Notes under the pieces: generated by a model
Seen by the model: the letters and a program-made list of their open reading frames with translations, nothing else
What the model was told of the DNA's origin: nothing
Databases searched by the model: none
Source: Thermococcus sp. 18S1
GTDB lineage: Archaea > Methanobacteriota_B > Thermococci > Thermococcales > Thermococcaceae
Assembly (NCBI RefSeq): GCF_012027645.1
Contig: NZ_SNUU01000001.1
Span: 806,001 to 870,000, forward strand
DNA length: 64,000 nt
Reading direction: 5' to 3'
Part shown: positions 21,216 through 49,330 of the stretch, one piece after another
Layout: every line of letters begins with the position of its first letter
How positions within the stretch are numbered: the first letter of the stretch is position 1
Made by a program: the position numbers and the translations under genes

Positions 21216-23573
21216 TCACTGTCCCCAAGCGTCGTTTAACCTAAATGTGCCCCTATCCAGCACCTTTCCGTTCCTCTCGTAAGTATACCTTACGACGGCG
21301 CTCTCTTCCAGCTCCGGGGGAAGGGAAAACTCATCCAATCCCGTCACGTCGTAGCTCTCCTCGAAGACCCGGGTTCCGTTGTCCATAAAGCCCTCGAGTA
21401 CCAGGCGCGTTCCGGTGGCGTTCGTGAACTTCAGGACGATGCGTCCCTCCCGGGAAACAACGGCCACGTTGGGGTGTTCGAATCTGAAGATCTTGATGTA
21501 TCCTCCGTCGGAGTACACCATGCTGTATCCCGGCAGGCTCTCCGTGAACATCAGCCTTGCGAGGGTTGTGTTGAAAGCTTTCCAGTTCATAAGGACGGCG
21601 TAGCCGTAGTTCAAGTTTATGTACACATATGCATCAGCTTTTGGGGCGCCGGTAACGTTGACCTCTTCTATCCCATGTGAATTTTCCACGTATGCTTCCA
21701 TGGGAGAGAACACACTGTTGCCAGCGTTTGCGATAACTTTCCAGTTATTGTCGTTTCCTGGTCGTGCAGTTATGGAGTATCCATCAATAGAGAATATTAA
21801 TGTCTCTCCTCTTATCTCAACAAGAGGTATGGGAATCATTGGATATTCATTTAAGGGAACATTGGCAATTTTTAGAACTGCCGGGAACTTCCTCACGGTA
21901 TCATAAGAGACTATGATATAATCTACTCCGAGGCTCATTAGTTCGTCCCTTTTAACCATGCCCATATAGTACTTTGCAACGAATTCGTTTGGAGCGCCTC
22001 CTGGGAGGGCCCCTCTATGCGCATAGTATGTCACCCAGTGGGCCTGATCCCACCATGTGAGGACAACGTCATTTTTGTTGGATGTGATTCCAAGATTTGT
22101 TAGTGCGGCTTCCCACTCCTCATTAATGAACGGTTTTAGGTTCATGGTATTTTGAACGGCCAAAAGGACTGTGGGAATCACCAGAAGGATAATGATTAGT
22201 GAGGGGAGGTATTTTTTGTGGGGCACCTTCAGATTTCGAACCTCTTGCATCATTTCCCATGCTCCAACTGCCGCCAGTATTGTAACGGCGAGAGAGCCTA
22301 TAAATAGAAATCTTGCCCATATTGTCACCATAGCTACACTGGGGAGTGCAAAGCTGAGCACGACGAAATCAGCCATCTTTGCCCGAGATGGCCTCAGGTG
22401 AAGGATAAAGAACGGAAGCGCAAGTAACAGTGTCCCATAAGATACCCACACGTCCCTCAGTGATGTCCTCCTGGTCTCTGCGATGGCTTTCTCTCCGAAT
22501 CTCTGAAGGAAGCGTAGAAACACTCTCTCAATGAAACCATGGTACTTAATACCCACGATTACCATCGCCAGAAGCAGTATTATGGCGATCATTGATCTCC
22601 CCTTCATGCCCCTGACGCCCTTGTGGACTCCAAAAAGAAGAAGAACCCCAATGAGTGTAAGGGGTACTGCGTACTTAAGGTAAACCAGCAGAAACGCATC
22701 TTTTACGAGTTCGAAATGGAGCCCAAGGTTCCTTGCAACCTCAATGCCATCCGGACGGTTCCACCCAAACATACCATACCCCAATATCGCTCCCATCACA
22801 TTGGCAACCAAAGCTCCGAAGGCTGTTGAGATAACAAGTGCTAGTGAGTCAAGAAAAGCCCAGTCTCTCCGAAGGAGCAACGCCCCAATGGCAATGAAGA
22901 GGGCATTTGAAAGGAGAAATACAAATATCAGGTAGTACGCACTCCAGAATGCTGCTGCCATTCCTGCAGCAAGCCCGGGAATGATGTAAAAAAGCAGCCT
23001 TCTGTACTTCTCTCTTCCCTGATTTGCGAGCTCAAGTGCAAAACCGATCCCGAGGAGCGCTATCGAGTACCAGAGCAGGAAGTAATTGTCGCCTCTGTAA
23101 TAATTTGCCATAGAGCGGAAGATATGGCCAAAGCTGATGGCGATGAAGAGAGATGAGAGAGTTGCAACTTCGTTGTTGTACAGACTTTTGACTGCGAAAT
23201 AACCCACAATTATGGTTGCAATGCCTATTATTGGGGGTGTCATTTTAAACGCGGTCTCAAGAGACACTCCGAATGGGGAGAGCAGGCGGTGGAAATACAG
23301 TGGGAGCATCCAGAACCCTTTGGGGTGGAATTGGTCTATGAGCATTCCCCATGGAGCGTTGGCGTAGGGGAAGAGGTTTACCCATTCTCCTATTTTGGCT
23401 GAATACTCAACGTAGGCCGCATGAAAGTAGGTATCGTAGCCTAAGAAATATTTGAGGCGGAACGTGATCATGCGGAGTATGAGGGTGAGAATCGTTAAGA
23501 TGAGGAGAAAATATCTGGTTCTTGTGAGGCTCCACAGCCCATTGAAAATTTTCTGAGTTTCAGTGGTCCTCAT
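21216..23573 (-). CDS. aglB: Oligosaccharyltransferase STT3/AglB, paralogue 1
   Basis: 785 residues: about 11-13 membrane segments, then a soluble C-terminal domain of roughly 300 residues. It transfers a lipid-linked glycan to Asn in N-X-S/T at the outer membrane face. The first loop carries GYDTYFHAAY with the conserved acidic residue. The WWDxG sequon-binding motif is present as W507-W508-D509-Q510-A511, with Ala in place of the conserved Gly. The last 130 residues closely match the paralogue at 46961. GC content is higher in the 3' 500 bp than in the middle, hinting at mosaic ancestry. Confidence 0.92.
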   Translation of the reverse strand: MRTTETQKIFNGLWSLTRTRYFLLILTILTLILRMITFRLKYFLGYDTYFHAAYVEYSAKIGEWVNLFPYANAPWGMLIDQFHPKGFWMLPLYFHRLLSPFGVSLETAFKMTPPIIGIATIIVGYFAVKSLYNNEVATLSSLFIAISFGHIFRSMANYYRGDNYFLLWYSIALLGIGFALELANQGREKYRRLLFYIIPGLAAGMAAAFWSAYYLIFVFLLSNALFIAIGALLLRRDWAFLDSLALVISTAFGALVANVMGAILGYGMFGWNRPDGIEVARNLGLHFELVKDAFLLVYLKYAVPLTLIGVLLLFGVHKGVRGMKGRSMIAIILLLAMVIVGIKYHGFIERVFLRFLQRFGEKAIAETRRTSLRDVWVSYGTLLLALPFFILHLRPSRAKMADFVVLSFALPSVAMVTIWARFLFIGSLAVTILAAVGAWEMMQEVRNLKVPHKKYLPSLIIILLVIPTVLLAVQNTMNLKPFINEEWEAALTNLGITSNKNDVVLTWWDQAHWVTYYAHRGALPGGAPNEFVAKYYMGMVKRDELMSLGVDYIIVSYDTVRKFPAVLKIANVPLNEYPMIPIPLVEIRGETLIFSIDGYSITARPGNDNNWKVIANAGNSVFSPMEAYVENSHGIEEVNVTGAPKADAYVYINLNYGYAVLMNWKAFNTTLARLMFTESLPGYSMVYSDGGYIKIFRFEHPNVAVVSREGRIVLKFTNATGTRLVLEGFMDNGTRVFEESYDVTGLDEFSLPPELEESAVVRYTYERNGKVLDRGTFRLNDAWGQ

Positions 23574-23686: not shown

Positions 23687-24811
23687 ATGCGAATAGCGTT
23701 CATATACGATGCCCTTTACCCTGATGTCAAGGGGGGTGTCGAGCGTAGGCTCTATGAGCTCGGGAAGCGCCTATCTAGGAGACATGAGGTTCACTGGTAC
23801 ACGTTCGGATGGTGGGGGAAGGGCAAGACAACAGAGCGAGAGGGTATAATAATCCATGGCCTTGGAAAACCTGTTGACCTGTATAAAGGGGATGTCAGGA
23901 ATCCTTGGGAAGCTATAATCTTCTCGTGGAGACTCCTTCGTCGTGAAATAGATTCGTACGACGTGATCGACTGTCAAGAGTTCCCGTACCTCCATGCGTA
24001 CCCAGCAAGGGTGAAGTTCTCTGGTTTTGAAACGTTTGTAATCACCTGGCATGAATATTGGGGTGATTACTGGGTGGATTACCTTCCCATGGGGGCAAGA
24101 GTGGGAAAACTGGCCGAGAATGGCCTCCTAAAACTGACTGACAATCATGTGGTTGTCTCAAGGCGCACGCTCCTGAGGCTAGCGGAGGTTAGGGCAGGAA
24201 ACTTCGGGTTTGTTCCGAACGGCATTGACTTCGAGTTCATACGCTCCGTTGAACCCCACCCTGAGCTGAAATACGATGCTGTCTTTGTTGGCAGGCTCAT
24301 TAAGCATAAGAACGTGCTGATGCTCCTGAATGCCCTAAAGCTGTTGGTGCAGGAATTACCCTCCTTCAGGGTTGCAATAATCGGGGACGGCCCTCAACGG
24401 ATGGAGCTGGAATCTCTGGCAAGAACATTGGGAATCAGGGCAAATGTGGACTTCTTGGGCTTTCTACCACGCTTTAGTGACGTTGTCTCGATTGTTAAAT
24501 CGTCGCGGCTTCTGGCATTCCCATCCCTCCGGGAAGGGTTTGGGATGGTTGTTCTCGAGGCCAATGCTGCAGGGATCCCTGTGGTCACTGTAAACTCTCC
24601 TTTAAACGCAGCTACAGACCTTATAATAGATGGCTTGAATGGCTATGTGAGTGACCCAACCCCTGAAGGCTTTGCAGAGAAACTTTTATTAGCATGGGAA
24701 AACTCTCCCAAGATGAAGCGTCCTTCCCTCTCACTTGCGAAAAAATATGACTGGAATAATATTGCAAATCGGCTTGAGAAGTACTACAAAGGTGTTGCAA
24801 ATGGGTCCTGA
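23687..24811 (+). CDS. Glycosyltransferase family 4 (GT-B)
   Basis: 374 residues. The N-terminal GT-B domain starts MRIAFIYDALYPDVKGGVER. The C-terminal Rossmann domain contains VFVGRLIKHKN, GDGPQRMELE and the donor-binding LREGFGMVVLEANAAG with the E-x7-E arrangement of GT4. It is a cytoplasmic or membrane-peripheral sugar transferase for glycan assembly. A TATA box (GTTTAAATC, about 23648) and the start at 23687 fit; the upstream in-frame extension has no family similarity. The gene overlaps the following GT2 gene by 11 bases. Confidence 0.92.
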   Translation: MRIAFIYDALYPDVKGGVERRLYELGKRLSRRHEVHWYTFGWWGKGKTTEREGIIIHGLGKPVDLYKGDVRNPWEAIIFSWRLLRREIDSYDVIDCQEFPYLHAYPARVKFSGFETFVITWHEYWGDYWVDYLPMGARVGKLAENGLLKLTDNHVVVSRRTLLRLAEVRAGNFGFVPNGIDFEFIRSVEPHPELKYDAVFVGRLIKHKNVLMLLNALKLLVQELPSFRVAIIGDGPQRMELESLARTLGIRANVDFLGFLPRFSDVVSIVKSSRLLAFPSLREGFGMVVLEANAAGIPVVTVNSPLNAATDLIIDGLNGYVSDPTPEGFAEKLLLAWENSPKMKRPSLSLAKKYDWNNIANRLEKYYKGVANGS

Positions 24812-25916
24812 AGTTACGGTCGTTTTGCCCACGATGAACGAGGAAGAGGCCATCTCAGTGATGTTGCCTCGCATCAAGGACGTTCTGGAGCGCATGGGAG
24901 TCTCGTACGAGATAGTGGTCGTCGACAAGAGCAGCGACAGGACTCCCGAGATAGCGAGGAATTTGGGCGCCCGGGTGATAATGCAGGAGGGGAAGGGCTA
25001 CGGCGATGCCTACCTGACGGGTTTCAGAAACGCTCGGGGCAGGTTCATCGTGATGATGGATCCCGACGGTAGTTACGATCCCGAGGACATCCCGAAGCTC
25101 CTGGAACCCCTCTTCAGAGGGGAAGCGGACTTCGTCATGGGGACCCGCCTTAAAGGGGAGATGGACAAGGGTTCTATGCCCTGGCTCCACAGGCATGTTG
25201 GTAACCCCCTCCTCACGTGGGTTCTCAACGTACTTTTCAAAGCCGGCATAAGCGATGCCCACTGCGGCATGAGAGCCATCAGGAAGGACGTTCTCAAGAG
25301 GCTGCCTCTCAAGTGCAAGGGCATGGAGTTCGCCAGCGAGATGGTCATAGAGGCCGCAAAGAGGGGCCTTCGTATGGTCGAGGTTCCAATAAAGTACCAT
25401 CCTAGGATAGGAGAATCCAAGCTCAGCTCCTTCAAAGATGGGTGGAGGCATCTGAGGCTCATGCTGCTTTACTCTCCTTCGTACCTCTTCCTTCTCCCTG
25501 CAGTGATTTTCATGGTGGCTGGAGTTGTTCTTATGGGCTACGCCTACCTCCTCAAGCCCGAGAGGCTCCACACCCTTGTTCTCGGCAGCGCCTTGACTCT
25601 TCTGGGCTTTCAGATACTTGGGTTCGGAATCTCCGCTAGGGTCTATGCCGTCAAGGAGGGTCTCGACGAGCCTACCAGCCTGACGAGGTTCTTCATGAGG
25701 TATTCCATACTCGAGGAAGGCCTTCTTGTCGGCGGCCTGATGTTCATAGTTGGTGTGCTCCTTGGGATTTATATCTTCATGGAGTGGAGCTCGTCCGGTT
25801 ACGGGGCCCTCTTCATGCTTAGGGAGGCCATATTGGTGCTAACCCTGACCACTTTGGGACTTTCAGTTATCTTTTTCTCGTTCTTTGTTAGTATATACGT
25901 GCTTAAGGAGGCCTGA
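24801..25916 (+). CDS. Glycosyltransferase family 2, dolichol-phosphate sugar synthase-like, with C-terminal membrane domain
   Basis: 371 residues from the ATG at 24801. GT2 features: TVVLPTMNEEEAI, VVVDKSSDRTPEIA (the usual DDGSxD is DKSSDR here), and MMDPDGSYDPEDI with the metal-binding DPD. About four membrane segments follow from residue 225. The layout matches dolichol-phosphate mannose/glucose synthases, which load a polyprenyl phosphate for extracytoplasmic glycosylation. Co-transcribed with the GT4 gene upstream; convergent with the GT4 at 25903 with a 14-base overlap. Confidence 0.9.
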   Translation: MGPEVTVVLPTMNEEEAISVMLPRIKDVLERMGVSYEIVVVDKSSDRTPEIARNLGARVIMQEGKGYGDAYLTGFRNARGRFIVMMDPDGSYDPEDIPKLLEPLFRGEADFVMGTRLKGEMDKGSMPWLHRHVGNPLLTWVLNVLFKAGISDAHCGMRAIRKDVLKRLPLKCKGMEFASEMVIEAAKRGLRMVEVPIKYHPRIGESKLSSFKDGWRHLRLMLLYSPSYLFLLPAVIFMVAGVVLMGYAYLLKPERLHTLVLGSALTLLGFQILGFGISARVYAVKEGLDEPTSLTRFFMRYSILEEGLLVGGLMFIVGVLLGIYIFMEWSSSGYGALFMLREAILVLTLTTLGLSVIFFSFFVSIYVLKEA

Positions 25917-27087
25917 ACCTGTCTTTGGCAGCTTTTAAGGTTTCTTCTGTTTTTTTCACGATCTTGTCCCAACTGTACTCCCTTTCCGCGAGCCTTCTGC
26001 CGTTTTTGCCCATTTTTCTTGCGAGGTGGTCATCTGTGAGCAGAGTAACCATAGCATCGGCTAATCGTACTGGATCTTTGGGTGGGACAAGTATTCCAGT
26101 TTCTCCATCTTTGATAACATGCTTTATTCCACCGACTTTTGCTCCAATGACCGGCCTGCCGCTGGCACCGGCCTCTATCAGGACCATTCCGAACCCTTCT
26201 TGGATGGTTGTTGAGGGAAGAACTACTAAGTCAGAACTCCTGTAAAGGTCGGGTAATATCTCCTCCTCGACGTATCCCGTAAATATGACCCTCTCTGAAA
26301 TCCCGAGGGATGCACACATCTTTTTATACTTGGGTATCATGTCACCCCTCCCTACCAGCACCAGATATGAATTTTCCACCTGTTTTGCGACGGATTTGAA
26401 AGCCTTAAGAAGGTAGGGTACCCCCTTGTGGGCGTGCCCCTTGTTCATCGCACCGATGAACATTACGATCTTTGCAGACTTTGGAAGGTTGTATCTTCCG
26501 TGTAGTTTGTATGATTTGCCTGGAGAGTATCTTTCTATATCGACCCCCGGGGGGATCCACGCAAGTTTTTCCTTGAACCTTTTGAGCAATTTAGATTCGT
26601 AGTAGCAATATGGGGAGGGTGTTATTATAATGTCCGAGAGAAACAGCAAACTTCGCTGTAATGATAGGTTATATACGTGCGTTATTATGTTTAAAGGAAA
26701 ACCCTCCTTAACTAAGTCATTGTGGTATGTAAGAACGAATGGAATCCTATTGTCCCTTTTGAATATATGTGTAACCCACATGGAGACATCCGCGTAGTAT
26801 GGGACAGGGGTGTGGGCGTTTATTATATCGAACTTCTCTTCTTTGAGAACTTTAATGAGTTTTGATGGGAGATTAAGGTCTATCGGAGTATTGGATACCA
26901 TGAGGTCTGGGTTTAGCCTTGTTACCTCAACACCTTCAAGGTTTTGTAAACTGTTGCCTTTCCGTGACGCTGCTATAACCTTTACCTCCCACCCCTTATC
27001 CACTAGACCCTTTGCTATCATGTATGCGTACTTCTCAAGCCCACCACCTTCCGGATAGAAGTATGGTGTGATCATGAGTAATCTCAT
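25903..27087 (-). CDS. Glycosyltransferase family 4 (GT-B)
   Basis: 394 residues. It starts MRLLMITPYFYPEGGGLEKYA. The C-terminal donor domain has VMFIGAMNKGHAHKG, GRGDMIPKYKKM and IQEGFGMVLIEAGASG with the GT4 glutamate pair, followed by GGIKHVIKDGETG. It is somewhat more AT-rich than the GT pair next to it, so it may have arrived separately. Its role is addition of one sugar in the lipid-linked glycan; donor and acceptor are unknown. Confidence 0.9.
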   Translation of the reverse strand: MRLLMITPYFYPEGGGLEKYAYMIAKGLVDKGWEVKVIAASRKGNSLQNLEGVEVTRLNPDLMVSNTPIDLNLPSKLIKVLKEEKFDIINAHTPVPYYADVSMWVTHIFKRDNRIPFVLTYHNDLVKEGFPLNIITHVYNLSLQRSLLFLSDIIITPSPYCYYESKLLKRFKEKLAWIPPGVDIERYSPGKSYKLHGRYNLPKSAKIVMFIGAMNKGHAHKGVPYLLKAFKSVAKQVENSYLVLVGRGDMIPKYKKMCASLGISERVIFTGYVEEEILPDLYRSSDLVVLPSTTIQEGFGMVLIEAGASGRPVIGAKVGGIKHVIKDGETGILVPPKDPVRLADAMVTLLTDDHLARKMGKNGRRLAEREYSWDKIVKKTEETLKAAKDRFRPP

Positions 27088-27423: not shown

Positions 27424-29946
27424 ATGAGAAGGAAACTGTATAGTTTGTTGTTGGCTTTGTTTGTTTTAGCAGCGGCAGTGCCCGCGGCAGTAAGCATCTC
27501 AGTGCCAACCACACCGATAACGTTCCAGCCGCTTGCGGATGACTCATTGCCTGACATCAATTTCATAGCTCCACCCCAGCTATCCAACGACACTACAAAC
27601 GCCACCAATGTTGAACTGACCCTGTACTTCAACAACTCGCTCCTGGACCTTCCAGGTGGAGGGCAGGGACTCATCAAGGTCGGTTTTACTGGGATTTCTC
27701 CGTTCGACGTTACTCAGGTCTCATTGGTCTCATTCAAGATCAACGGAACTGACAAGACCAGCAATGTCGTAGGGTTTGTGCGCTACCAGCAGGACCCGTC
27801 CGATCCAAACGCCCAGTCGGTGTTCATTTACGTCAACATACCTATAACCCCCGCTGACAATGTTGAGATAGTTCTCGGCGGCCTTAAGAACCCGGAGATA
27901 CCCGGAACCTACACCGTCAGCGTTGGTACCTACGTCGCTGGAAACCCGAGGTCTTCGGGCACTGCACCGGTAATCATCAAAGGTCCCAAGCCACCGCTCA
28001 ACCTGCCGAAGCCGTTCCTCATTAAATGGCACCAGGACTACTCCGAATGCCACGGTTGCAACCCCGATGACCACTACGACATCCTCAACACCACGTTGGT
28101 TGGGTACAACGAGGATGGCCCAGTCTACGAGATAAGCTACCCGCTTGGCTATACTCTTGACTGTGATAACGGATACTTCAGCTACAATATCTACGCCTGG
28201 AACCTCAGCTACCAGAACCTTACCTTCGAAGGAATCAAGATATTTGTGAACAATGAGATTGTGGACTGGTGGCCCGCCGACTACTTCTGGACCTACAAGG
28301 AGTGCCACGTGATAAGCGATGGTGAGGTCAGCCACGGTGTTATCACCGAGGACTTCACCGAGAAGGTTCCCGAGGGTGCGGAGGACTACCTCCAGGGATG
28401 GGATCTAGGTGAGGGCCATGGCTTTGAGCACGCCGAGCCTGCCGACATGGTAGTCTACTACAACAGGGAGTATGGTTGGGCCCTTACTACCTACCCGACC
28501 AGCTATCAGATCGACAACAACAGCTACATAGAGACCGACGAAATGTCACTCATCGACGGCACCAGCGCTGACGTCAAGACCTACACCGGAACCGTTAACG
28601 CCACCTTCACCTATGCCCTGGCCCTTGACCCGAACGTCACCGTCACCCTCCAGTACAAGGTATACAGCCCGACGAGCGGATGGAGCACCAACTGGATCAA
28701 CCTTATGAGCCTCACCGAGGCCGACGACACCCCGTGGAACACTACCTCCGTTAACTTCTCCGTCAGCGGCGTCACGAGGATTAAGTTCAGGTTCGTGGTT
28801 ACTTACACCAACGTTGACGAGTTCACCAAGCCCGGTTTCGCCCTCTTCAGCTTCAATGTCATCAACGAGTATGTGAAGGACTGTGACACGGTTTACGCAG
28901 TCAACCCGCTCGACGGTGTCAACACGACCCTGTTTGTTTACAACCTCAGCGAGATTCTCGACGAGTACCTCCTCCCAGGGGAGAACATGACCATTGAGCT
29001 CGAGGCCATATACACACTCCACGGGGAGGAGCAGCTTGAGAAGTACGACCCGATCCAGGTTGCCACCCAGGACTTCTGGGTTTACAGGAACATCTGCCTT
29101 GAGCTTGGCCTCTGTGATGTTCTCAGTAACGCCAGGTACATAGTCGAGGGTGGCGGAACCTGGACCTTCGGCTCACCGCAGCCCTACTTCGGCTGGGAAT
29201 TCGATGCTGACCAGAACCCCATAATAGCCACCGGACACGGCTCACTGGCCGCTGATAACCTTGGTGTGCTGTTCTACCTTAGCCAGGCGGGAGCAGACCC
29301 GAACAAGGTTATCTTCGACGACAACCCGCAGTACGTAGACCTCACCACTGGTGAGATAAAGGGACTCCAGCCGGGAGACATAGTCATACTCGTTGGCTCA
29401 AGCGGTGTCAACCTACCGCTTGGATACTATGAGTACACCACTGGCGAGGCCCCAGTCGTCAGGATACCGCCGCAGAACGGAATGTGGGACGCCTTCGTGC
29501 TCCCGAACGGCACGGTCGTTGAGTGGGCCGGGCCGGACGAGCAGTGGTACGACGTCTGGGAGGACGTCTTCGTAATCCAGTGGTTCACCACAGATGACGG
29601 AGCTATGGTCTTCTCGGTCGAGGGTGCTGGCGTTGACGGTACCGTCGCTGCCTCGTGGCTGGTATCTTACATCGTGTACATGAACTACGGCCACCAGCCG
29701 CTTCCACCAAGCGGATACATAGTTGGCAGATGGTACGAGGGCAACCAGAGTGTTTCTGACGAAATCTTCGCACCTGCTTGGATCAGGGGTTCACCGGACG
29801 ACGTTAACGGCTTCAGTACTGGCGATGACTTCATTAAGATCGAGTACATGAGCGATCCGGGACTCTTTGGACTCTCCCCAGGACTTGTCCTCCAGACCTA
29901 CCCCATACCGAGCTGCCACTGCTACGACTGGGACTACTGGGACTGA
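27424..29946 (+). CDS. Large secreted cysteine-containing surface glycoprotein
   Basis: 840 residues. Signal peptide MRRKLYSLLLALFVLAAAVPAA, then an all-beta ectodomain with many N-X-S/T sequons and paired cysteines (CHGC, CLELGLC, and CHC close to the end) suggesting disulfides. There is no C-terminal membrane anchor; the protein ends CHCYDWDYWD. The last 190 or so residues contain GDIVILVGSSGVN, a second strand block (MVFSVEGAGVDGTVAASW), YIVGRW and NGFSTGDDFIKI. The same blocks recur at the end of the membrane protein at 30798 and recall S-layer outer-domain repeats. Biased codon use and a strong promoter suggest high expression. Confidence 0.75.
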   Translation: MRRKLYSLLLALFVLAAAVPAAVSISVPTTPITFQPLADDSLPDINFIAPPQLSNDTTNATNVELTLYFNNSLLDLPGGGQGLIKVGFTGISPFDVTQVSLVSFKINGTDKTSNVVGFVRYQQDPSDPNAQSVFIYVNIPITPADNVEIVLGGLKNPEIPGTYTVSVGTYVAGNPRSSGTAPVIIKGPKPPLNLPKPFLIKWHQDYSECHGCNPDDHYDILNTTLVGYNEDGPVYEISYPLGYTLDCDNGYFSYNIYAWNLSYQNLTFEGIKIFVNNEIVDWWPADYFWTYKECHVISDGEVSHGVITEDFTEKVPEGAEDYLQGWDLGEGHGFEHAEPADMVVYYNREYGWALTTYPTSYQIDNNSYIETDEMSLIDGTSADVKTYTGTVNATFTYALALDPNVTVTLQYKVYSPTSGWSTNWINLMSLTEADDTPWNTTSVNFSVSGVTRIKFRFVVTYTNVDEFTKPGFALFSFNVINEYVKDCDTVYAVNPLDGVNTTLFVYNLSEILDEYLLPGENMTIELEAIYTLHGEEQLEKYDPIQVATQDFWVYRNICLELGLCDVLSNARYIVEGGGTWTFGSPQPYFGWEFDADQNPIIATGHGSLAADNLGVLFYLSQAGADPNKVIFDDNPQYVDLTTGEIKGLQPGDIVILVGSSGVNLPLGYYEYTTGEAPVVRIPPQNGMWDAFVLPNGTVVEWAGPDEQWYDVWEDVFVIQWFTTDDGAMVFSVEGAGVDGTVAASWLVSYIVYMNYGHQPLPPSGYIVGRWYEGNQSVSDEIFAPAWIRGSPDDVNGFSTGDDFIKIEYMSDPGLFGLSPGLVLQTYPIPSCHCYDWDYWD

Positions 29947-29961
29947 AGTGAATCTTGAAGG

Positions 29962-29990
29962 TTTCCTTTTTCTTCCTTTTCAGGTTTTGT
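29962..29990 (+). terminator. T-rich terminator after the 27424 gene
   Basis: The run GTTTCCTTTTTCTTCC continuing through TTTTCAGGTTTTG, starting sixteen bases past the stop, is a strong archaeal-type terminator. A separate TATA box (GTTTTAAATT, about 30008) serves the next gene. Confidence 0.6.
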
Positions 29991-30059
29991 TCTAACTTCT
30001 GGCAAAAGTTTTAAATTCTCGGGGTTTTTATCCTGAACGAAGGACACGTGGGGGTCTGT

Positions 30060-30791
30060 ATGAAGCGGCGGTGGATTTATCCTCTGGCTCTGATTGCTGT
30101 GGTGCTGTTGGGGGCTTCCCTGCTGGTTGTGACGCTCAATCAGCCTCATTCTCAGGGTTACACCAAAGTCTATTTTGAAAGCGACGTCTTTCCCAGGGTT
30201 GAGCCGAACAGGACGTACGATCTTGCGTTCCTTATTGAGTCCCATGAGGAGGACGTCAGTACCTATGTGTATACGGTGTACCTAGATAACTCCTCGATAG
30301 AAACCGGTAAGGTCACACTGAATCCGGGTGACCTCCAGAGGATTCAGTTCAGCTTTTCCATCGATGAGGTTAACTACTCCAAGCGAGTGCTGCTGAATGA
30401 AACGAGGACTCTGAAGGTGAACGGCTCTTCGGACGTTGTTGGTGCTCCACGGGCGTATGGCATCGATCTCACGAAATTCAACCTCACCGGAGAAGATCTT
30501 ATCCACGTTCTGGAGAACTTCCCCCTCATGTATGTTGCCAACGGGACCTCAATTATCGTCAACACCACCGAGGGAACCAGTATCTCAGACGTTTCCAGGA
30601 GGAAAGACGGGGACAGGCTCATAGAGACCCGCAGGGAATTCAACCTAACACGCGAGGGGGAGGGGTACATCATCTCTCTGAGAACTCTCAAGTTGGAGTA
30701 CGTTCCCCGCCCCGTGGAGATACGGGTCGTTGTCGTCTCCAGTTCCGGAGAAAAATACTCCTTGAGGGCCCTTCTGGAGTCAGGGGGGTAA
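30060..30791 (+). CDS. Single-pass membrane protein with extracellular domain
   Basis: 243 residues from the ATG at 30060 (an in-frame GTG at 30048 would add four). Basic start MKRRWIYPLA, one membrane segment to about residue 25, then a beta-rich ectodomain with several N-X-S/T sequons (NRT, NSS, NYS, NET, NGS, NLT). No uncleaved C-terminal anchor. The next gene begins six bases after its stop and shares the mRNA. Function unknown; the context points to the cell surface, perhaps assembling or modifying the secreted protein at 27424. Confidence 0.65.
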   Translation: MKRRWIYPLALIAVVLLGASLLVVTLNQPHSQGYTKVYFESDVFPRVEPNRTYDLAFLIESHEEDVSTYVYTVYLDNSSIETGKVTLNPGDLQRIQFSFSIDEVNYSKRVLLNETRTLKVNGSSDVVGAPRAYGIDLTKFNLTGEDLIHVLENFPLMYVANGTSIIVNTTEGTSISDVSRRKDGDRLIETRREFNLTREGEGYIISLRTLKLEYVPRPVEIRVVVVSSSGEKYSLRALLESGG

Positions 30792-30797
30792 AGCAAG

Positions 30798-33059
30798 TTG
30801 GAAGTGGCCGTTCTTACCTTTGTCTTCATTCTGGGGGCTGTCTCGGTTATCCTGTGGGGTAAACTGGGCTGGGTAGGGCGGCTTCTTCTCCTGGCGTTTC
30901 TCGCGTTTGTTCTTGGGTGCTCTATACGCTGCGGTTTCGGCAGGTACTTCACGGCGTTCGATGAGAGCTATTACATGTCCCTGATGGGGGATGTGTATTT
31001 CTACAGGAAGTGGCCGTTCTCTGGCTTTGTCCTCCCATTCCTCCTGATGGGGATATTCCATACCTTCCGTTTGGAGCCCCTGCAGCTCGTCATCGCGTTT
31101 TCACTTGCTGTGTTTGTCGTGTACGTTCCCGTCGTTTACTGGTTCTACCGCAGGGTTGGCCTCTCCAGGGAGGTGTCGATACTGTCGATCCTCGTGCTCT
31201 TCCTTTCGAGCTACTACATCTGGGCCGGGCTGGAGGTGAGGCCCCAGCAACTTGGGCTCCTCTGGGGACTCCTTGTTACCGTTTACTATCTGAGCAACCA
31301 CAGGGAAATTCGGGATGCTGACTTCGTCGTGCTGCCGCTTCTGTTCGTTTTCATGGCTTTGATCCATATACTCTCCTTTGTTTTCTTCTCGGTGCTGTTG
31401 ATGCTCTACACGGTTTACATGTCGCTGTCAGGGAACCTCTCCGACGGGCTATGGAGGAGGAATTTTCTACTCGTCTCTCTATCTTCGCTCGCTGGATTGC
31501 TCACGATCCTCTGGTTTCCCCCGTACGACAGAATGGTGGGTGCACTCATCTGGATCGTGGAGAACATGAGGCTCGTGAGTGCCCTCCACCTGTCACAGGG
31601 GCTTTTTAAGCTCCTTGCGGTCGGGGGTTATCTTCTAACTGTTGCCTTTGTGTGGCTGGTGGTTTCGTTCCTTCGCCGGAGGAGAGGGTCGCTTGTGAGA
31701 GCCTGGGGCTTCCTCGTTGGGATGGTGAACAGGTTTTTCGTCCCTATCCTGCTCCTAGCCGCGTTGGCGTGGGGAGTCGCGGTATATCTCCAGTTCCTGC
31801 TGAACTCTGCCGTTTACAGCACCGTTTACGGGGGGTCTCTACTGGCCTTCGTGTTCTTCCAGCTTGGAAACATCTTTTTTGGCTTCATGCTTGTGTATTC
31901 CCTCCTCGATCGGATTCGCGGCGGGAGGCTCCAGACCCTGGAGGTTCTAGCGGTTTCGTGGATGCTGATCGGGGGGGCGATGCTTGCGATCTCGTTCCTC
32001 ATGCCGAGGACCGCGGGGGGCTGGGGCTTCAGCAACTGGCTCGTCAGGGTCCTCCAGTACTTTCCGGTCTTTGGCGCCCCCCTCGTGGCCAGGATAATCC
32101 ACGAGGATCTCCAGAATCTTCCAGGTGAGTTCAACTCCTTTTCGGCGAAGTTTTCGGGAATTGGACTGACGATTCTCCTGGCTTCTCTGATATTCATCAG
32201 CGGTATGAACGTGGCCAGGCCGTCGGCGTTCTATACCTATGATGCGGTGATTACCGACGAGGTCTTGGACGTGTCCCTTTACCATCTGAAGAACGATGGA
32301 ATCGTCGCGTGGAGGAACGCCTCGGATTTCAGGAGTTTCGTGCTGCTCAACTTCTTCCGCGCGGTATCTCCCGGGACCAAAACCACCGCGTGGGACTCCA
32401 GCTATCCTTACCTTGTTCTCTCCTCCGACGATTTCAGGGTTTACCGGTCGTGGTACTCCACGTCCACGCTGGGGTCTCTGGCCGGCCGCTCATTTTTCTC
32501 CCTCAGGACCTCCGGCTCCGGCTCGCCCGACAGGGAAGCGGAAACGAGGTACTCTGTGCAGATTTTAAGCGAGGTGTACTCCCTGTCTCTGATGAACGAT
32601 GCCGAGTGCGGTGGCCTCCTGGATTCAGACACACCTCTCATCCTTATTGGGGCGGGTTCGAACGACTGTACGGTCCTTCTCGAGGGTTCGGGTTCCCTTC
32701 CAGTTTCTCTGGGCCCCGATGGGGTTTCTACCCCGATGCGCCTCTATCCTCTCCCTGAGGCCCCTGAGAACTGGTGGGATGTGAGGGAGGGATACTTTGT
32801 TATTCAGGCCGTCGAGAACCTTCAGGGCACGCCCATTCTTGTTATCGCGGGCACGAACGTGGACTCCACGATAGCGGGGGTCTGGTACTTCGTGAATGAA
32901 GTTTATCCGAGGATCAGGGGGGATTACTCCGATGTCCACTACATCGTTGGTCGGTGGGAGGAGGCGGACGGTGACGTCTGGCCCGGTCTGAAGTTCGACC
33001 TCTCCGACGGCAACGGCTTCAGTCCCGGCGACAGGATAACGATCCTGGAAACCGGCTGA
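30798..33059 (+). CDS. Polytopic membrane protein with S-layer-like C-terminal domain
   Basis: 753 residues starting at a TTG eight bases after GGGGGGT (a GTG lies two codons in). Around 11-12 membrane segments occupy residues 1-470. A first-loop motif (FDESYYMSLMGDVYFYRKWP) is reminiscent of GT-C membrane glycosyltransferases with an acidic residue in loop 1. The last 280 residues are extracytoplasmic. They end in blocks shared with the 27424 protein: LILIGAGSND, PILVIAGTNVDSTIAG, YIVGRW and NGFSPGDRITIL. A GT-C enzyme that docks on its substrate through this domain is one reading. Confidence 0.7.
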   Translation: MEVAVLTFVFILGAVSVILWGKLGWVGRLLLLAFLAFVLGCSIRCGFGRYFTAFDESYYMSLMGDVYFYRKWPFSGFVLPFLLMGIFHTFRLEPLQLVIAFSLAVFVVYVPVVYWFYRRVGLSREVSILSILVLFLSSYYIWAGLEVRPQQLGLLWGLLVTVYYLSNHREIRDADFVVLPLLFVFMALIHILSFVFFSVLLMLYTVYMSLSGNLSDGLWRRNFLLVSLSSLAGLLTILWFPPYDRMVGALIWIVENMRLVSALHLSQGLFKLLAVGGYLLTVAFVWLVVSFLRRRRGSLVRAWGFLVGMVNRFFVPILLLAALAWGVAVYLQFLLNSAVYSTVYGGSLLAFVFFQLGNIFFGFMLVYSLLDRIRGGRLQTLEVLAVSWMLIGGAMLAISFLMPRTAGGWGFSNWLVRVLQYFPVFGAPLVARIIHEDLQNLPGEFNSFSAKFSGIGLTILLASLIFISGMNVARPSAFYTYDAVITDEVLDVSLYHLKNDGIVAWRNASDFRSFVLLNFFRAVSPGTKTTAWDSSYPYLVLSSDDFRVYRSWYSTSTLGSLAGRSFFSLRTSGSGSPDREAETRYSVQILSEVYSLSLMNDAECGGLLDSDTPLILIGAGSNDCTVLLEGSGSLPVSLGPDGVSTPMRLYPLPEAPENWWDVREGYFVIQAVENLQGTPILVIAGTNVDSTIAGVWYFVNEVYPRIRGDYSDVHYIVGRWEEADGDVWPGLKFDLSDGNGFSPGDRITILETG

Positions 33060-34059: not shown

Positions 34060-34257
34060 TCCATCCACCTTACCCCGAGTAAAATACTGGGTTTAAAATG
34101 GTTTCTTAGATCGACACTTCGATTTGCTGGAGTTTTATATTAAAAAAGTTAAAGTTGTTGGGGATCGTTCATTTTCCTCTCAATGTTTTTATTTACCTAT
34201 TGTGGTTGGAGCATGACTTAAATAGACTAATGACAAAATACATGTTTGGGAATGTCC

Positions 34258-35181
34258 ATGAAGCGACCCGGGGGTTTGATAATGAGGGTCGGGGCGTTAT
34301 TTCTGATGCTAATGCTGATGGAAGCGGGTATCGCGGGGGCCTACACCGTTACCGTTGATGGGGATCCCTCCGATTGGCCCTCCGAGCTGGATATTCAGAA
34401 TTCCGGAATATCCCCTGGGGAATCCGGGTACGTAAATGGGGTCTGGGTTTTTCAGGATTTATCGGGCGACCTGAACCAATACGGGGATGATAACCCCGGC
34501 TATGATATCAAGTACTTCATGATCACGTTCGACGATACGTACGCGTTCTTCCTGATGGTCCTAAACAGCCCCGCGGTGTTTGACAGCCCTGACTCTCCGC
34601 TGGTGATAATCGCCCTCGGCAATGAGCAGTACCAGGGAGGGAAAAACGTGTTTGACCCGGCCATTTACGTGGGTTCTGACTCTCAATGGAGCACCGGCAG
34701 CCAAGTTCAGACCTCAAAGGTGTGGCAGAGGGAGATCGTGGTTAATCTCAGCAGAATCTCAGGAAACTCAATCGTCAGCGGCTCAAACGCCGCGTTCTGG
34801 GTTTACAACTCGGTTAGCGAGGGGAACGTCAACAGCTCGAATGACCTCGCCGCCGTCAACTACGACAATGGGGTTGTTGAACTCAGGGTTAGACGGGACG
34901 AGCTGTACCTTCAGCCCGGTTCGGGGGTGAGCAGTTTCTATCCCTACGCTTTGATCGCCAACAGGACATGGTATGGTACTGAATGGTATAGACAATATTA
35001 TTATCTCGCTATGGATGTGATGTCCAATGTCACAACTGATGACGAGATGGGCGACGGGAAGATCGACTATTCGCCCGCGGTTGATGTTTCCCAGGTTCCC
35101 TTCTTCGGCGGTGACCTGTCAAGGGCGGCGCTGGTGGTGCTGTTGGTTGTTGGTGCCGTCCTGCTCTTCGGGAGGCGGTGA
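34258..35181 (+). CDS. Secreted protein with C-terminal sorting-type tail; candidate archaeosortase substrate
   Basis: 307 residues from the ATG at 34258; the ATG at 34282 has the better ribosome site (GGGGGT) and still gives a full signal peptide (MRVGALFLMLMLMEAGIAGA). The mature part begins YTVTVDGDPSDWPSEL, a pattern common to family-9-like carbohydrate-binding or DOMON-like beta-sandwiches, and has sequons. The C-terminus is tripartite: a short motif VPFFGGD, a hydrophobic stretch of about 16 residues, and terminal GRR. That layout is typical of sorting signals. The convergent neighbour, 11 bp away, is an archaeosortase. TATA-like CTTAAATAG lies at 34215-34223. Confidence 0.7.
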   Translation: MKRPGGLIMRVGALFLMLMLMEAGIAGAYTVTVDGDPSDWPSELDIQNSGISPGESGYVNGVWVFQDLSGDLNQYGDDNPGYDIKYFMITFDDTYAFFLMVLNSPAVFDSPDSPLVIIALGNEQYQGGKNVFDPAIYVGSDSQWSTGSQVQTSKVWQREIVVNLSRISGNSIVSGSNAAFWVYNSVSEGNVNSSNDLAAVNYDNGVVELRVRRDELYLQPGSGVSSFYPYALIANRTWYGTEWYRQYYYLAMDVMSNVTTDDEMGDGKIDYSPAVDVSQVPFFGGDLSRAALVVLLVVGAVLLFGRR

Positions 35182-35191
35182 GTGGTTCCTC

Positions 35192-36001
35192 TCACCCGTT
35201 TCTTGCTTTCTCAGCGTCCTTTGGGCGTTTCAGAACCCACCACCAGTATCCGAAGACGTATGCAACGAACATCATGTCCCCTATGTGTGAGTGAAAGAGC
35301 TCCAGGAACGATATCCCGCTGTGGTAGCCGATGACAAGGAGCGTGAATATTCTGACCGCGTTCAGGGGGATTATCCCCAGTGCTCCGAGGAGCAGAAGTG
35401 AAGCCTCTCTTCCGTCCGATTTCCTGAGGAGGATCAGAAGTCCCGCCGCGAGCAGGTACAGGATAAACGCGTCCAGCCCGGAGCAGCCGGAGCCTATTAT
35501 CACCATGCTGCTTCTCACGACCGCAACGTTGCCCCTAACGATGATTGGGACGTTGAAGACGTCTACCAGGCCCCGTACGAGGTGGGAGGTGACGTCAACG
35601 AATGCGCCGCTCAGGAGGCCCAGAAGTTCGACCCCTTCCCGGAGCCTGAGAACCGCCGCTAGAAACACTTCGAGTACAGGCACCGCAGAGGGTACGAGTA
35701 TCGTTTTTGCATCAAACAGAACGAGGGAGACGCCGAGGAACAAAACTGCCTGGAACGTTGATGGGCTTGGATTGTCCCCCCATCTGTAAATCAGGAACAT
35801 GGGCGAGACGCCGATTAGGAGGATCCCGGCTATAGTATACGCGTCCAGCCGGAGGGGCTTTTCCCGGATGTTGTCCCGGAATGTGAAGAGAACCATGCCG
35901 TAGATTAGGCCGAAATACAGTGTGGGGAGGGTCTGTGTTGCTCCGAAGATTGCCGCGGAGACGATCAGGGTGAATATCAGAAAACCCTCACTCCTCCTCA
36001 C
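35192..36001 (-). CDS. Exosortase/archaeosortase family transpeptidase
   Basis: 269 residues, polytopic with about eight membrane segments. All three catalytic elements of the family are visible: Cys173 in GSGCSGLDAF, Arg217 in PLNAVRIF, and a His in LFHSHIGDMMF (237 or 239). These enzymes cut a C-terminal sorting signal outside the membrane and usually attach the protein to a lipid. The GTG start overlaps the upstream gene by 14 bases, making this the last gene of the DUF4129-DUF4350-MoxR-DUF58 operon. The adjacent convergent gene encodes the only protein here with a matching tail. Confidence 0.9.
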   Translation of the reverse strand: MRRSEGFLIFTLIVSAAIFGATQTLPTLYFGLIYGMVLFTFRDNIREKPLRLDAYTIAGILLIGVSPMFLIYRWGDNPSPSTFQAVLFLGVSLVLFDAKTILVPSAVPVLEVFLAAVLRLREGVELLGLLSGAFVDVTSHLVRGLVDVFNVPIIVRGNVAVVRSSMVIIGSGCSGLDAFILYLLAAGLLILLRKSDGREASLLLLGALGIIPLNAVRIFTLLVIGYHSGISFLELFHSHIGDMMFVAYVFGYWWWVLKRPKDAEKARNG

Positions 36002-46960: not shown

Positions 46961-49330
46961 ATGGAACGGTGGAGGAGGTCTGAAATAGCATCCTTTCTGC
47001 ACACCATCATCGTGCCCAAGTTCGCGGCCCCTATCTTAACCGCCATCGCCCTCGCCTTCAGGCTCATCCCCCTGCGCTTTGAGTACCTCCTCGGCTACGA
47101 TCCATACTTCCACCTCGCTTACATCAGGTATGCTCTGGAGAAGGGAGAGTGGGTGAACTTCTTCACTCACGCCCTGGGCCCCTACGGGTACCAGATCGGC
47201 AGATTCCATCCACTCGGCCTGTGGATGACACCCGTCTACTTCTATAAACTCCTCTCCCCCTTCGGCGTTTCGCTCTACAACGCCTTCAGAATAACGCCGG
47301 TTGTATTCGGCGTCCTCACCGTGCTGTTCACGTACCTCGCCGTGCTGAGGCTCTACGGTAGGAGGGAGGCCTTCCTCTCGGCGTTTCTCCTGGCCGTGAG
47401 CTTCGGCCACGTCTTCCGCTCGATGGCCGGTTACTACCGCGGCGACAACTACATGCTCTTCCTCTACAGCGCGGCCCTCCTTGGAACCGCCGTTCCCCTC
47501 TCCCTCAGGGGCCCCCGGTGGAGGAACGTCCGGCTGGCCCTCTACCTCCTGCCCGGGATCTTCACCGGCCTTTCCGCGGCCTTCTGGCAGGCATACTACC
47601 CCATATTCGCACTCGTTGCCGCCAACGCCCTCCTCCTCGCCGTGGGTGCGTTCCTCCTCGGGAGGGACAGGTACCTCATGGATTCCCTGGCCCTCCTCGC
47701 ATTCCTGGCCGCCGGCGCCCTTCTGGCAAACTCGATAGGCTCCCACCTCGGGTACGGCATGGTGGGCGCCACCCACTGGCTCGGGAAAAAGCTGGCCGAG
47801 GAGCTCGGGGTCCAGTTCGGGTTCATCAGGGACCTGTTCCTCCTTCTGTACCTCAAATACGCACTTCCCCTCGCCGTGGCCTCCGTCATCGCCCTGGCGA
47901 TCCTCTCCAGGTTCGTCCGTGATAGAAAACAGAGGGTGCTGATAGTCCTCATCGGGACGGCCGCGGCGCTCTGGCTGGCTGTCCGGTACTACGGCGTCAT
48001 AAACGGGGCCATCCTTCGCATTTTCCCGGAGAGCCCGATAGCCGAGACCCAGAGGACTGCCTTCGATGACTGGTGGGAGGCCTACGGCATCGCGGGACTT
48101 CTCGTGCCACTCTTTCTCATCCGCTTCCTCAGGCGCCCCAGTCCCGCCGATTTCCTCCTCCTGGGCACCGCCATCGTCATGATACCCATGGCTGTCGTCT
48201 GGACCAGGTTCCTCTTCATATCCTCCCTCGCAGTGGCCGCTATGACCGGCATTGGGCTGGTGGCCCTCAGTGATTGGATGGGTGCCCTGATTGGAATATC
48301 CGAGGATGAGAACAGACGGAAGTGGCTCTCGGCGGCGGTGTCCGTTCTTTTGATTGGCGTCCCCCTCGTTTCGGCCTATCAGGGGCTGGGCACGACGCTG
48401 AGCGTCCACCCCTTCATGACCGACAACTGGGAGTCCGCCCTCACCTACCTCGGGAACGTCTCCAACCCCAACGACGTCGTCCTCACCTGGTGGGACCAGG
48501 GCCACTGGGTGACCTACTACTCCATGAGGGCGCCGGTTGCCCAGGGCGGGCCCAGCGGGTGGGTGGCTAGGTACTATCTCGGTCTCGTCGGCGAGGAGGA
48601 GCTGATGAAGCTTGGCGTTGATTACGTCATCGTCTCCTACGACACTCTGATGAAGTTCGGGGCAGTTATGGAGACGGCAGGGGTCTCCCCGGACGAGTAC
48701 GGCCTCGTGGTGCTTCACAGGGTGCCCTCCCGCGGATCGATCCTCGTGTTCTCCGGCGGCCCCTACTCCGTGATGGCCGTTCCGGGGAAGGATAGGTGGG
48801 ACGTCAAGGTGGACATCGGCGGGCGCTTCCTGCTGCCCGAGAGGGTCTTCGTTGAGGCCGGTGGAAGACTGGACGAGGTGGCCCTCTCCGGCCGCCCCAC
48901 CGCCGACGTCTACATTTACATAAACCTGAACTACGGCTACGCGGTTCTCATGAACGGCAGGGCCTTCGACACCCCCCTGGCGCGGCTGATGTTTACCGAT
49001 GACTATCCCGGGAATTACACCCTCGTGTACTCCGATGGCGGCTACGTGAAGATCTTCCTGTTCAGGCATCCGAACGTCGTCGTTACCGCGGAGAACGGCT
49101 CCGTCGTTCTCAGGTTCACCAACGCTACCGGGACCGGCCTCGGCATCTACGGCTATCTCGACAACGGCACGCTCGTCTTCAAGAAGTGGTACGGCGTTGG
49201 AGGGAAGGATTCATTTGTTCTCCCCGCCGACATCAACGGAAGCGTCGTCGTGAGGTACACCTACGTCCGGAAGAAAACGGTGCTGGATAGGGGGGTTTTC
49301 AGGATAGACGACATCCTGGCGAGTGGCTGA
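46961..49330 (+). CDS. aglB: Oligosaccharyltransferase STT3/AglB, paralogue 2
   Basis: 789 residues with about 13 membrane segments and a C-terminal soluble domain from about residue 490. First-loop acidic motif GYDPYFHLAYIRY; second acidic pair region AGYYRGDNYML; sequon-binding motif W510-W511-D512-Q513-G514 (WWDQG). Its C-terminal 130 residues are very similar to the paralogue at 21216 (INLNYGYAVLMN, YSDGGYVKIF, FTNATGTGL). GC-rich throughout and without the composition break seen in the paralogue. GAGGGG precedes the ATG; TATA near 46901. Confidence 0.93.
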   Translation: MERWRRSEIASFLHTIIVPKFAAPILTAIALAFRLIPLRFEYLLGYDPYFHLAYIRYALEKGEWVNFFTHALGPYGYQIGRFHPLGLWMTPVYFYKLLSPFGVSLYNAFRITPVVFGVLTVLFTYLAVLRLYGRREAFLSAFLLAVSFGHVFRSMAGYYRGDNYMLFLYSAALLGTAVPLSLRGPRWRNVRLALYLLPGIFTGLSAAFWQAYYPIFALVAANALLLAVGAFLLGRDRYLMDSLALLAFLAAGALLANSIGSHLGYGMVGATHWLGKKLAEELGVQFGFIRDLFLLLYLKYALPLAVASVIALAILSRFVRDRKQRVLIVLIGTAAALWLAVRYYGVINGAILRIFPESPIAETQRTAFDDWWEAYGIAGLLVPLFLIRFLRRPSPADFLLLGTAIVMIPMAVVWTRFLFISSLAVAAMTGIGLVALSDWMGALIGISEDENRRKWLSAAVSVLLIGVPLVSAYQGLGTTLSVHPFMTDNWESALTYLGNVSNPNDVVLTWWDQGHWVTYYSMRAPVAQGGPSGWVARYYLGLVGEEELMKLGVDYVIVSYDTLMKFGAVMETAGVSPDEYGLVVLHRVPSRGSILVFSGGPYSVMAVPGKDRWDVKVDIGGRFLLPERVFVEAGGRLDEVALSGRPTADVYIYINLNYGYAVLMNGRAFDTPLARLMFTDDYPGNYTLVYSDGGYVKIFLFRHPNVVVTAENGSVVLRFTNATGTGLGIYGYLDNGTLVFKKWYGVGGKDSFVLPADINGSVVVRYTYVRKKTVLDRGVFRIDDILASG

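Follow-up and report, generated by a model that had tools for sequence, protein, structure and literature searches.

The stretch of DNA analysed here, referred to below as the window, is 64,000 nucleotides long and carries, on the forward strand, genes for an 840-aa secreted protein (27424..29946), a 243-aa protein (30060..30791), and a 753-aa polytopic membrane protein (30798..33059), the last of which starts at TTG. The secreted protein has a signal peptide by eye, 17 N-x-S/T sequons and, near its C-terminus, a domain hereafter called the module (residues 652-807; 29377..29844), which is followed by a 33-residue tail (29845..29943) with a PSCxC-type motif kept in 5/5 orthologues. The same module forms the C-terminus of the membrane protein (residues 614-753; 32637..33056). 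The middle gene, for which a longer GTG start exists at 30048, encodes one N-terminal span by eye and a beta-sandwich predicted to be extracellular, with sub-threshold matches to CBM_4_9 and DUF1616. It is separated from the membrane-protein gene by a gap of 6 bases (30791 to 30798), which is consistent with the predicted co-transcription of these two genes. Upstream lie a GT2 glycosyltransferase (24735..25916, forward strand) with C-terminal spans by eye, which resembles dolichol-phosphate-mannose synthase (best PDB match 5mlz, E 5.9e-22), and a GT4 glycosyltransferase on the reverse strand (25903..27087), which adjoins the GT2 gene in most of the loci compared. The window also encodes two similar large proteins of 785 and 789 aa (21216-23573 and 46961-49330, E 5e-225), the former with weak STT3/AglB matches.

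The original prediction held that the 840-aa and 753-aa proteins share a C-terminal domain, and BLASTP, shuffles, and profile-profile comparisons agree that these two ends are homologous. In pairwise BLASTP, residues 705-807 of the secreted protein aligned with residues 656-751 of the membrane protein at approximately 34-37% identity (E 1e-9); the alignment score of 119 exceeded the shuffle maximum of 83 and was equaled by 0/2000 residue shuffles. When the genome itself was searched, the two C-termini retrieved each other (E 1.9e-6 and 1.2e-5), the one additional row being an interrupted frame (E 0.097), and a profile of 19 membrane proteins retrieved the 840-aa protein at E 7.7e-15. A comparison in hhalign of separate alignments for each side (5 rows for the 840-aa family and 12 for the membrane protein) gave a probability of 98.9 and E 2e-17 over 138 columns, while the best of 60 column-shuffled decoys reached 2.8%; a relationship between the two domains was thus recovered, and therefore the observation of a shared module stands. 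The conserved blocks line up as they had been paired by eye, and the first of them (VILVGSSGVN and LILIGAGSND) is covered by the profile alignment and lies outside the gapped BLASTP alignment. A chance origin of these blocks was dropped after the shuffles and decoys.

Regarding the 753-aa protein, its description as polytopic and module-bearing was correct, whereas its GT-C fold, which makes it a relative of glycosyltransferases and not a mere anchor, had been missed. No Pfam or NCBIfam model matched it, those of glycosyltransferases included; the STT3/AglB profiles gave no match at E <= 1, and PF13231 (PMT_2) gave none. When searched at full length against PDB sequences, the 840-aa and 753-aa proteins gave only weak matches, which were taken as chance. 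In an AlphaFold2 model of the membrane protein (7 rows, mean pLDDT 70.9, pTM 0.65), the best structural match was to STT3/AglB, namely 8agc_A of the yeast oligosaccharyltransferase (Z 21.4, rmsd 5.6, 403 residues aligned), with 3waj close to it (Z 21.2, 388 aligned). Among the best 50 structure matches listed, the first 43 were all GT-C proteins (Z 21.4 to 9.5; next row 6.3), including AglB, PglB, ALG12, ArnT, Pmt4, Pmt1-Pmt2, and arabinosyltransferases, as well as the GPI-transamidase chains 8imx_U and 7w72_U, which we take to be GT-C. A Foldseek search with the same model returned 9 chains at E <= 0.001 (best 2.6e-5), all of which were oligosaccharyltransferases or complexes containing one. 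D55, E56, R148-P149-Q150, H190, and W414, among others, are invariant in 19/19 relatives; this invariance of the acidic loop, and of many residues in the membrane part, extends down to 27% identity. The invariant acids belong to an FDESYY stretch in the first loop (30957..30974), in which Y58 and Y59 are kept as well, and this site presumably corresponds to that of the catalytic acid in GT-C enzymes, an equivalence by position only. Judging from the predicted structure, membership in the GT-C superfamily, with the S-layer-type module replacing the oligosaccharyltransferase soluble domain, is well supported. STT3/AglB proteins carry a WWDYG motif in their catalytic soluble domain. An equivalent was rejected for the window protein, which has only a WWDV stretch, within the module; this was given no weight and taken as coincidence because similar stretches occur in the secreted carriers too. 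No description of a GT-C enzyme fused to an S-layer-type module was found in the literature searched by titles and the starts of abstracts.

On the strength of its sequence similarity and its co-occurrence with the membrane protein, the GT2 gene (24735) is a probable donor maker for this putative enzyme. A GT2 orthologue was found in 19/21 enzyme genomes against 11/73 genomes without the enzyme (p 2e-10) and, in good genomes, in 16/16 against 10/58 (p 8e-10), with both values uncorrected for kinship; the two enzyme genomes without an orthologue are bins of 61 and 73% completeness. Of the 11 genomes that have the GT2 gene but lack the enzyme, 4 were examined, and in all 4 a PMT_2-type GT-C gene stood beside the GT2 cluster (assigned by Pfam in two, one of them over cut-off, and by similarity in two), and a relative of it was looked for in the enzyme loci and not found. 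The exchange of this gene and the enzyme at the GT2 locus supports the window protein doing a GT-C job. The four loci concerned (L158, L159, L160, and L161) have a GT4-GT2-GT4 cluster, the first GT4 not being found in L160, with the PMT_2-type gene replacing the enzyme; the cluster is adjoined in L158-L160 by a very large protein (about 1200 aa) and in L161 by the apparent end of one. The comparison of these loci with the enzyme loci suggests that cassettes were exchanged at one locus.

A module-bearing secreted protein is encoded upstream of the enzyme, on the same strand, in 19/19 complete enzyme loci, at a distance of 0.9 kb or less in 17. These loci are of two types. In 11, the middle gene lies between the two module genes (11/11, in L068 recognised by reading the intergenic gap), and in the remaining 8, the module genes are adjacent, at most 62 bases apart, and the middle gene was found in 0/8. 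The expectation that all three genes co-occur thus holds for the first type only. Among 94 Thermococcaceae genomes, the module was found in 24 and the enzyme in 21 of these (two as fragments; counted by hand), a number that omits genomes matched through the module alone, with which the search tally is 24. The three genomes with the module and without the enzyme have fragments (G029), an intact 2112-aa frame (G035), and a 955-aa protein (G037). About one in five genomes of the family retains the gene set. The phylum-level search covered 115 genomes, and of the 21 outside the family, 6 gave weak module matches, to shorter open frames; the one scanned is the 321-aa protein with S_layer_C and DUF4430 described below. 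A search of contigs gave only 6 relatives, all in metagenome bins. A 5-kb contig (L084) is filed in a Thermotogaceae bin and carries the enzyme and the middle gene; it is probably mis-binned and possibly transferred.

The strict upstream pairing in 19/19 loci would also suit a former glycosyltransferase that serves as an anchor, tethering its secreted partner to the membrane through the module they have in common, and the carriers do end in the module and have no C-terminal membrane span by eye. However, an anchor does not need an acidic loop and many membrane residues that are invariant down to 27% identity, nor does it need a donor-making gene, which co-occurs with the enzyme. We consider this explanation decidedly improbable.

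The secreted partners of the enzyme range from 836 to 2933 aa, with one cut by a contig end. In the first four carriers scanned, the module was preceded by VWA, PEGA, Ig-like or carboxypeptidase-regulatory matches, several of them below cut-off, or else by a family-5 solute-binding domain. The 840-aa protein gave a weak match to DUF2808 (E 2.5e-5, just below cut-off) at residues 124-174, outside the module. Family-5 solute-binding proteins with a C-terminal module are encoded at L079:7917-10781 and L093:399-3266 (PF00496 being scanned in L079), and this arrangement suggests a way of keeping the binding protein at the surface. Orthologues of the 840-aa protein in G034, G014, G008, and G004 are 72-84% identical to it. 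Within the genus, the enzyme is conserved at 92-95% identity and the 840-aa protein at 79-84%, and across genera this relation is inverted (49-51 and 72-74%, respectively); on the basis of sequence, the histories of the two genes may differ. Sequon enrichment is seen in the carriers adjacent to the enzyme (z 3 to 14.5), with z 1.7-2.9 in other carriers of about 1000 aa, about 0 in the solute-binding-type carriers of 954/955 aa, and -0.3 in an unlinked 2097-aa protein; therefore, N-glycosylation is no general mark of module carriers. A high sequon density was rejected as a trait of all carriers, being present in the adjacent ones and not in most of those of solute-binding-protein size.

An iterated profile from the 19 membrane-protein ends, run on the genome stretches fetched, detected 54 module copies at E <= 1e-3, a count in which fragments are included and one protein is represented twice from a single contig. 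Of these copies, 48 finish within 5 residues of the protein C-terminus and one at 11; the five 840-aa orthologues have a tail of 31-34 residues with the PSCxC-type motif after the module. An archaeosortase-type sorting signal places a motif, a membrane span, and a basic tail at the client's C-terminus. This was considered for the carriers and rejected, as the position of the 48 copies leaves the module itself at the protein end. In a tree of 51 module rows (midpoint root, long branches flagged, with rows from L085-L088, which are repeat contigs, and fragments in L100-L101 omitted), the enzyme modules occupy one side of a branch (support 93/83) and the secreted modules the other. Because the enzyme modules form one side of this branch, their fusion to the enzyme looks like a single event.

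The conserved blocks had been said to recall the outer domain of S-layer proteins, and several comparisons bear this out. PF05124 (S_layer_C) matched 6/10 members of the module alignment A3 at E <= 1, and of 9 relatives scanned singly, 3 were over the cut-off of 23.9 bits, 3 below, and 3 without a match; the two copies of the window itself gave no match to this model. A search of all PDB sequences with the A3 profile gave one match only, 9fsa (E 0.0021), which was also the top VIA match of an AlphaFold2 model of the end of the 840-aa protein (pTM 0.73; Z 7.9, rmsd 3.0, 117/135 aligned), where unrelated BcsB and GH67 chains tie with it. The enzyme modules were compared as a profile with 20 Thermococcales S-layer proteins, these being the loci, of the 28 in L117-L144, with an ORF >300 aa containing the text VGGP; the result was E 9e-5 and a probability of 59.5, against E 0.0092 and 4.4% for the best of 60 decoys, and the 840-aa family alone gave a non-significant E 0.096 against the same profile. 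The placement of the module among the kin of the archaeal S-layer outer domain (PF05124) is, as far as sequence comparisons go, well supported. S_layer_C domains were also seen elsewhere: a 597-aa protein of the own genome (L091:976-2769) has DUF4932 and a C-terminal S_layer_C over cut-off and is metalloprotease-like by eye, and, outside the family, a 321-aa secreted-looking protein combines S_layer_C with DUF4430 at L147:974-1939 and four similar loci.

The explanation that we favour, still tentatively, is that the GT-C enzyme glycosylates module-tagged surface proteins, which it docks by the shared S-layer-type module. It builds on the homology and S-layer kinship of the module, the predicted fold, the invariant acids, the gene linkage, and the co-occurrence described above. 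The DPMS-like GT2 enzyme (24735) would produce a lipid-phosphate sugar, which the GT-C enzyme, acting on the outer face of the membrane with the D55/E56 loop in its active site, would use as a donor; surface proteins bearing the module would receive the sugar. Both the activity and its acceptors are what we infer from these data. The enzyme and client may meet via module-module pairing, as in the dimerisation of archaeal S-layer anchors. This docking is a hypothesis by analogy, attractive because the closest solved relative of the module is a dimerisation domain. The more specific form of this proposal, in which recognition is homotypic, the glycosyltransferase carrying a copy of its clients' C-terminal tag and pairing through an S-layer-anchor dimerisation module, is possible and more doubtful than the proposal as a whole. 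The distances among enzyme modules and those among partner modules correlated with r 0.55, which fell to a partial r of 0.10 (permutation p 0.13) with the membrane part held constant. Given this lack of module-specific co-evolution and the uneven sequon enrichment, docking keeps the standing of a hypothesis.

The absence of module-specific co-evolution of the enzyme and secreted protein accords with the main rival, in which both dock independently on the S-layer anchor, under the lattice, with no mutual contact needed. This is compatible with the kinship of the module to the S-layer outer domain itself, with its reuse on other secreted proteins such as the solute-binding protein, and with the presence of an S_layer_C domain at the end of a further secreted-looking protein encoded in the own genome. 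However, an S-layer protein was found in 34/41 family genomes sampled and the module in only 24/94. Moreover, such plugging should be independent of the enzyme, whereas unlinked module carriers favour enzyme genomes, occurring in 5/16 good genomes with the enzyme against 3/58 without (p 0.01) and, over all genomes including G061, in 6/21 against 3/73 (p 0.003), with neither value corrected for kinship. We regard this rival as rather unlikely. The division of enzyme and secreted modules by one branch of the tree (93/83) and the several contexts of S_layer_C domains also fit the reuse of an S-layer-type domain with no functional coupling, the enzyme acting on lipid-linked glycans and the module merely orienting it towards the envelope; the linkage and co-occurrence of the enzyme with module-bearing secreted proteins speak against such reuse and make it improbable in our view. 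If the preferred explanation, a glycosyltransferase that recognizes module-bearing clients, is true, the clients' module on a GT-C enzyme would be a simple answer to substrate choice, which, to our knowledge, is largely unknown for archaeal glycosyltransferases outside the AglB pathway. It would also connect a trans-acting enzyme with the fold of the S-layer anchor and provide a starting point for work on the giant proteins secreted by Thermococcales; in this order, according to one description, the envelope often has two protein layers (PMC5744192).

Downstream of the membrane protein, the window continues with an archaeosortase-family gene (35192, minus strand), which adjoins a protein (34246) whose C-terminus has a hydrophobic stretch and an RR end, within 34246-36001; the two are a possible substrate pair. 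DUF1616, DUF58, and ATPase-like genes also lie downstream of the enzyme, the last presumably of the MoxR type. These three were found near the enzyme in at most 5/19 loci and are therefore regarded as neighbours, not parts; the archaeosortase-like, DUF1616, and DUF58 genes were rejected as parts of the system, as most of the loci fetched lack them in the vicinity of the enzyme.

This downstream set recalls a secretion or envelope complex of arCOG01314 and arCOG02884 (DUF1616) that was predicted by Makarova and colleagues in 2015 (PMC5898192), and DUF1616, DUF58, and the ATPase-like gene follow here too. The enzyme shares with STT3/AglB a GT-C fold that spans residues ~20-536 (Z up to 21.4) and an acidic pair in the first loop, whereas it has a linker and the S-layer-type module instead of the soluble oligosaccharyltransferase domain and matches no STT3/AglB model. 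Like PMT_2 proteins (PF13231), it stands in a GT2 neighbourhood, and it has fold matches to Pmt4, Pmt1-Pmt2, and ArnT, although the PMT_2-type proteins examined gave no module match. The module has its sole PDB sequence match in 9fsa, the anchor domain of the Methanococcus voltae S-layer protein, which is described as responsible for the dimerization of the anchor, a dimeric anchor being predicted for the S-layer proteins of Pyrococcus and Thermococcus in the same report (PMC11410804). With PF05124 and 9fsa, it shares the VGGxxxN block and a central D-T/S-x-A block, but it is contiguous, lies at the extreme C-terminus, closes with an additional NGFSxGD block, and occurs as a fusion with a GT-C enzyme.
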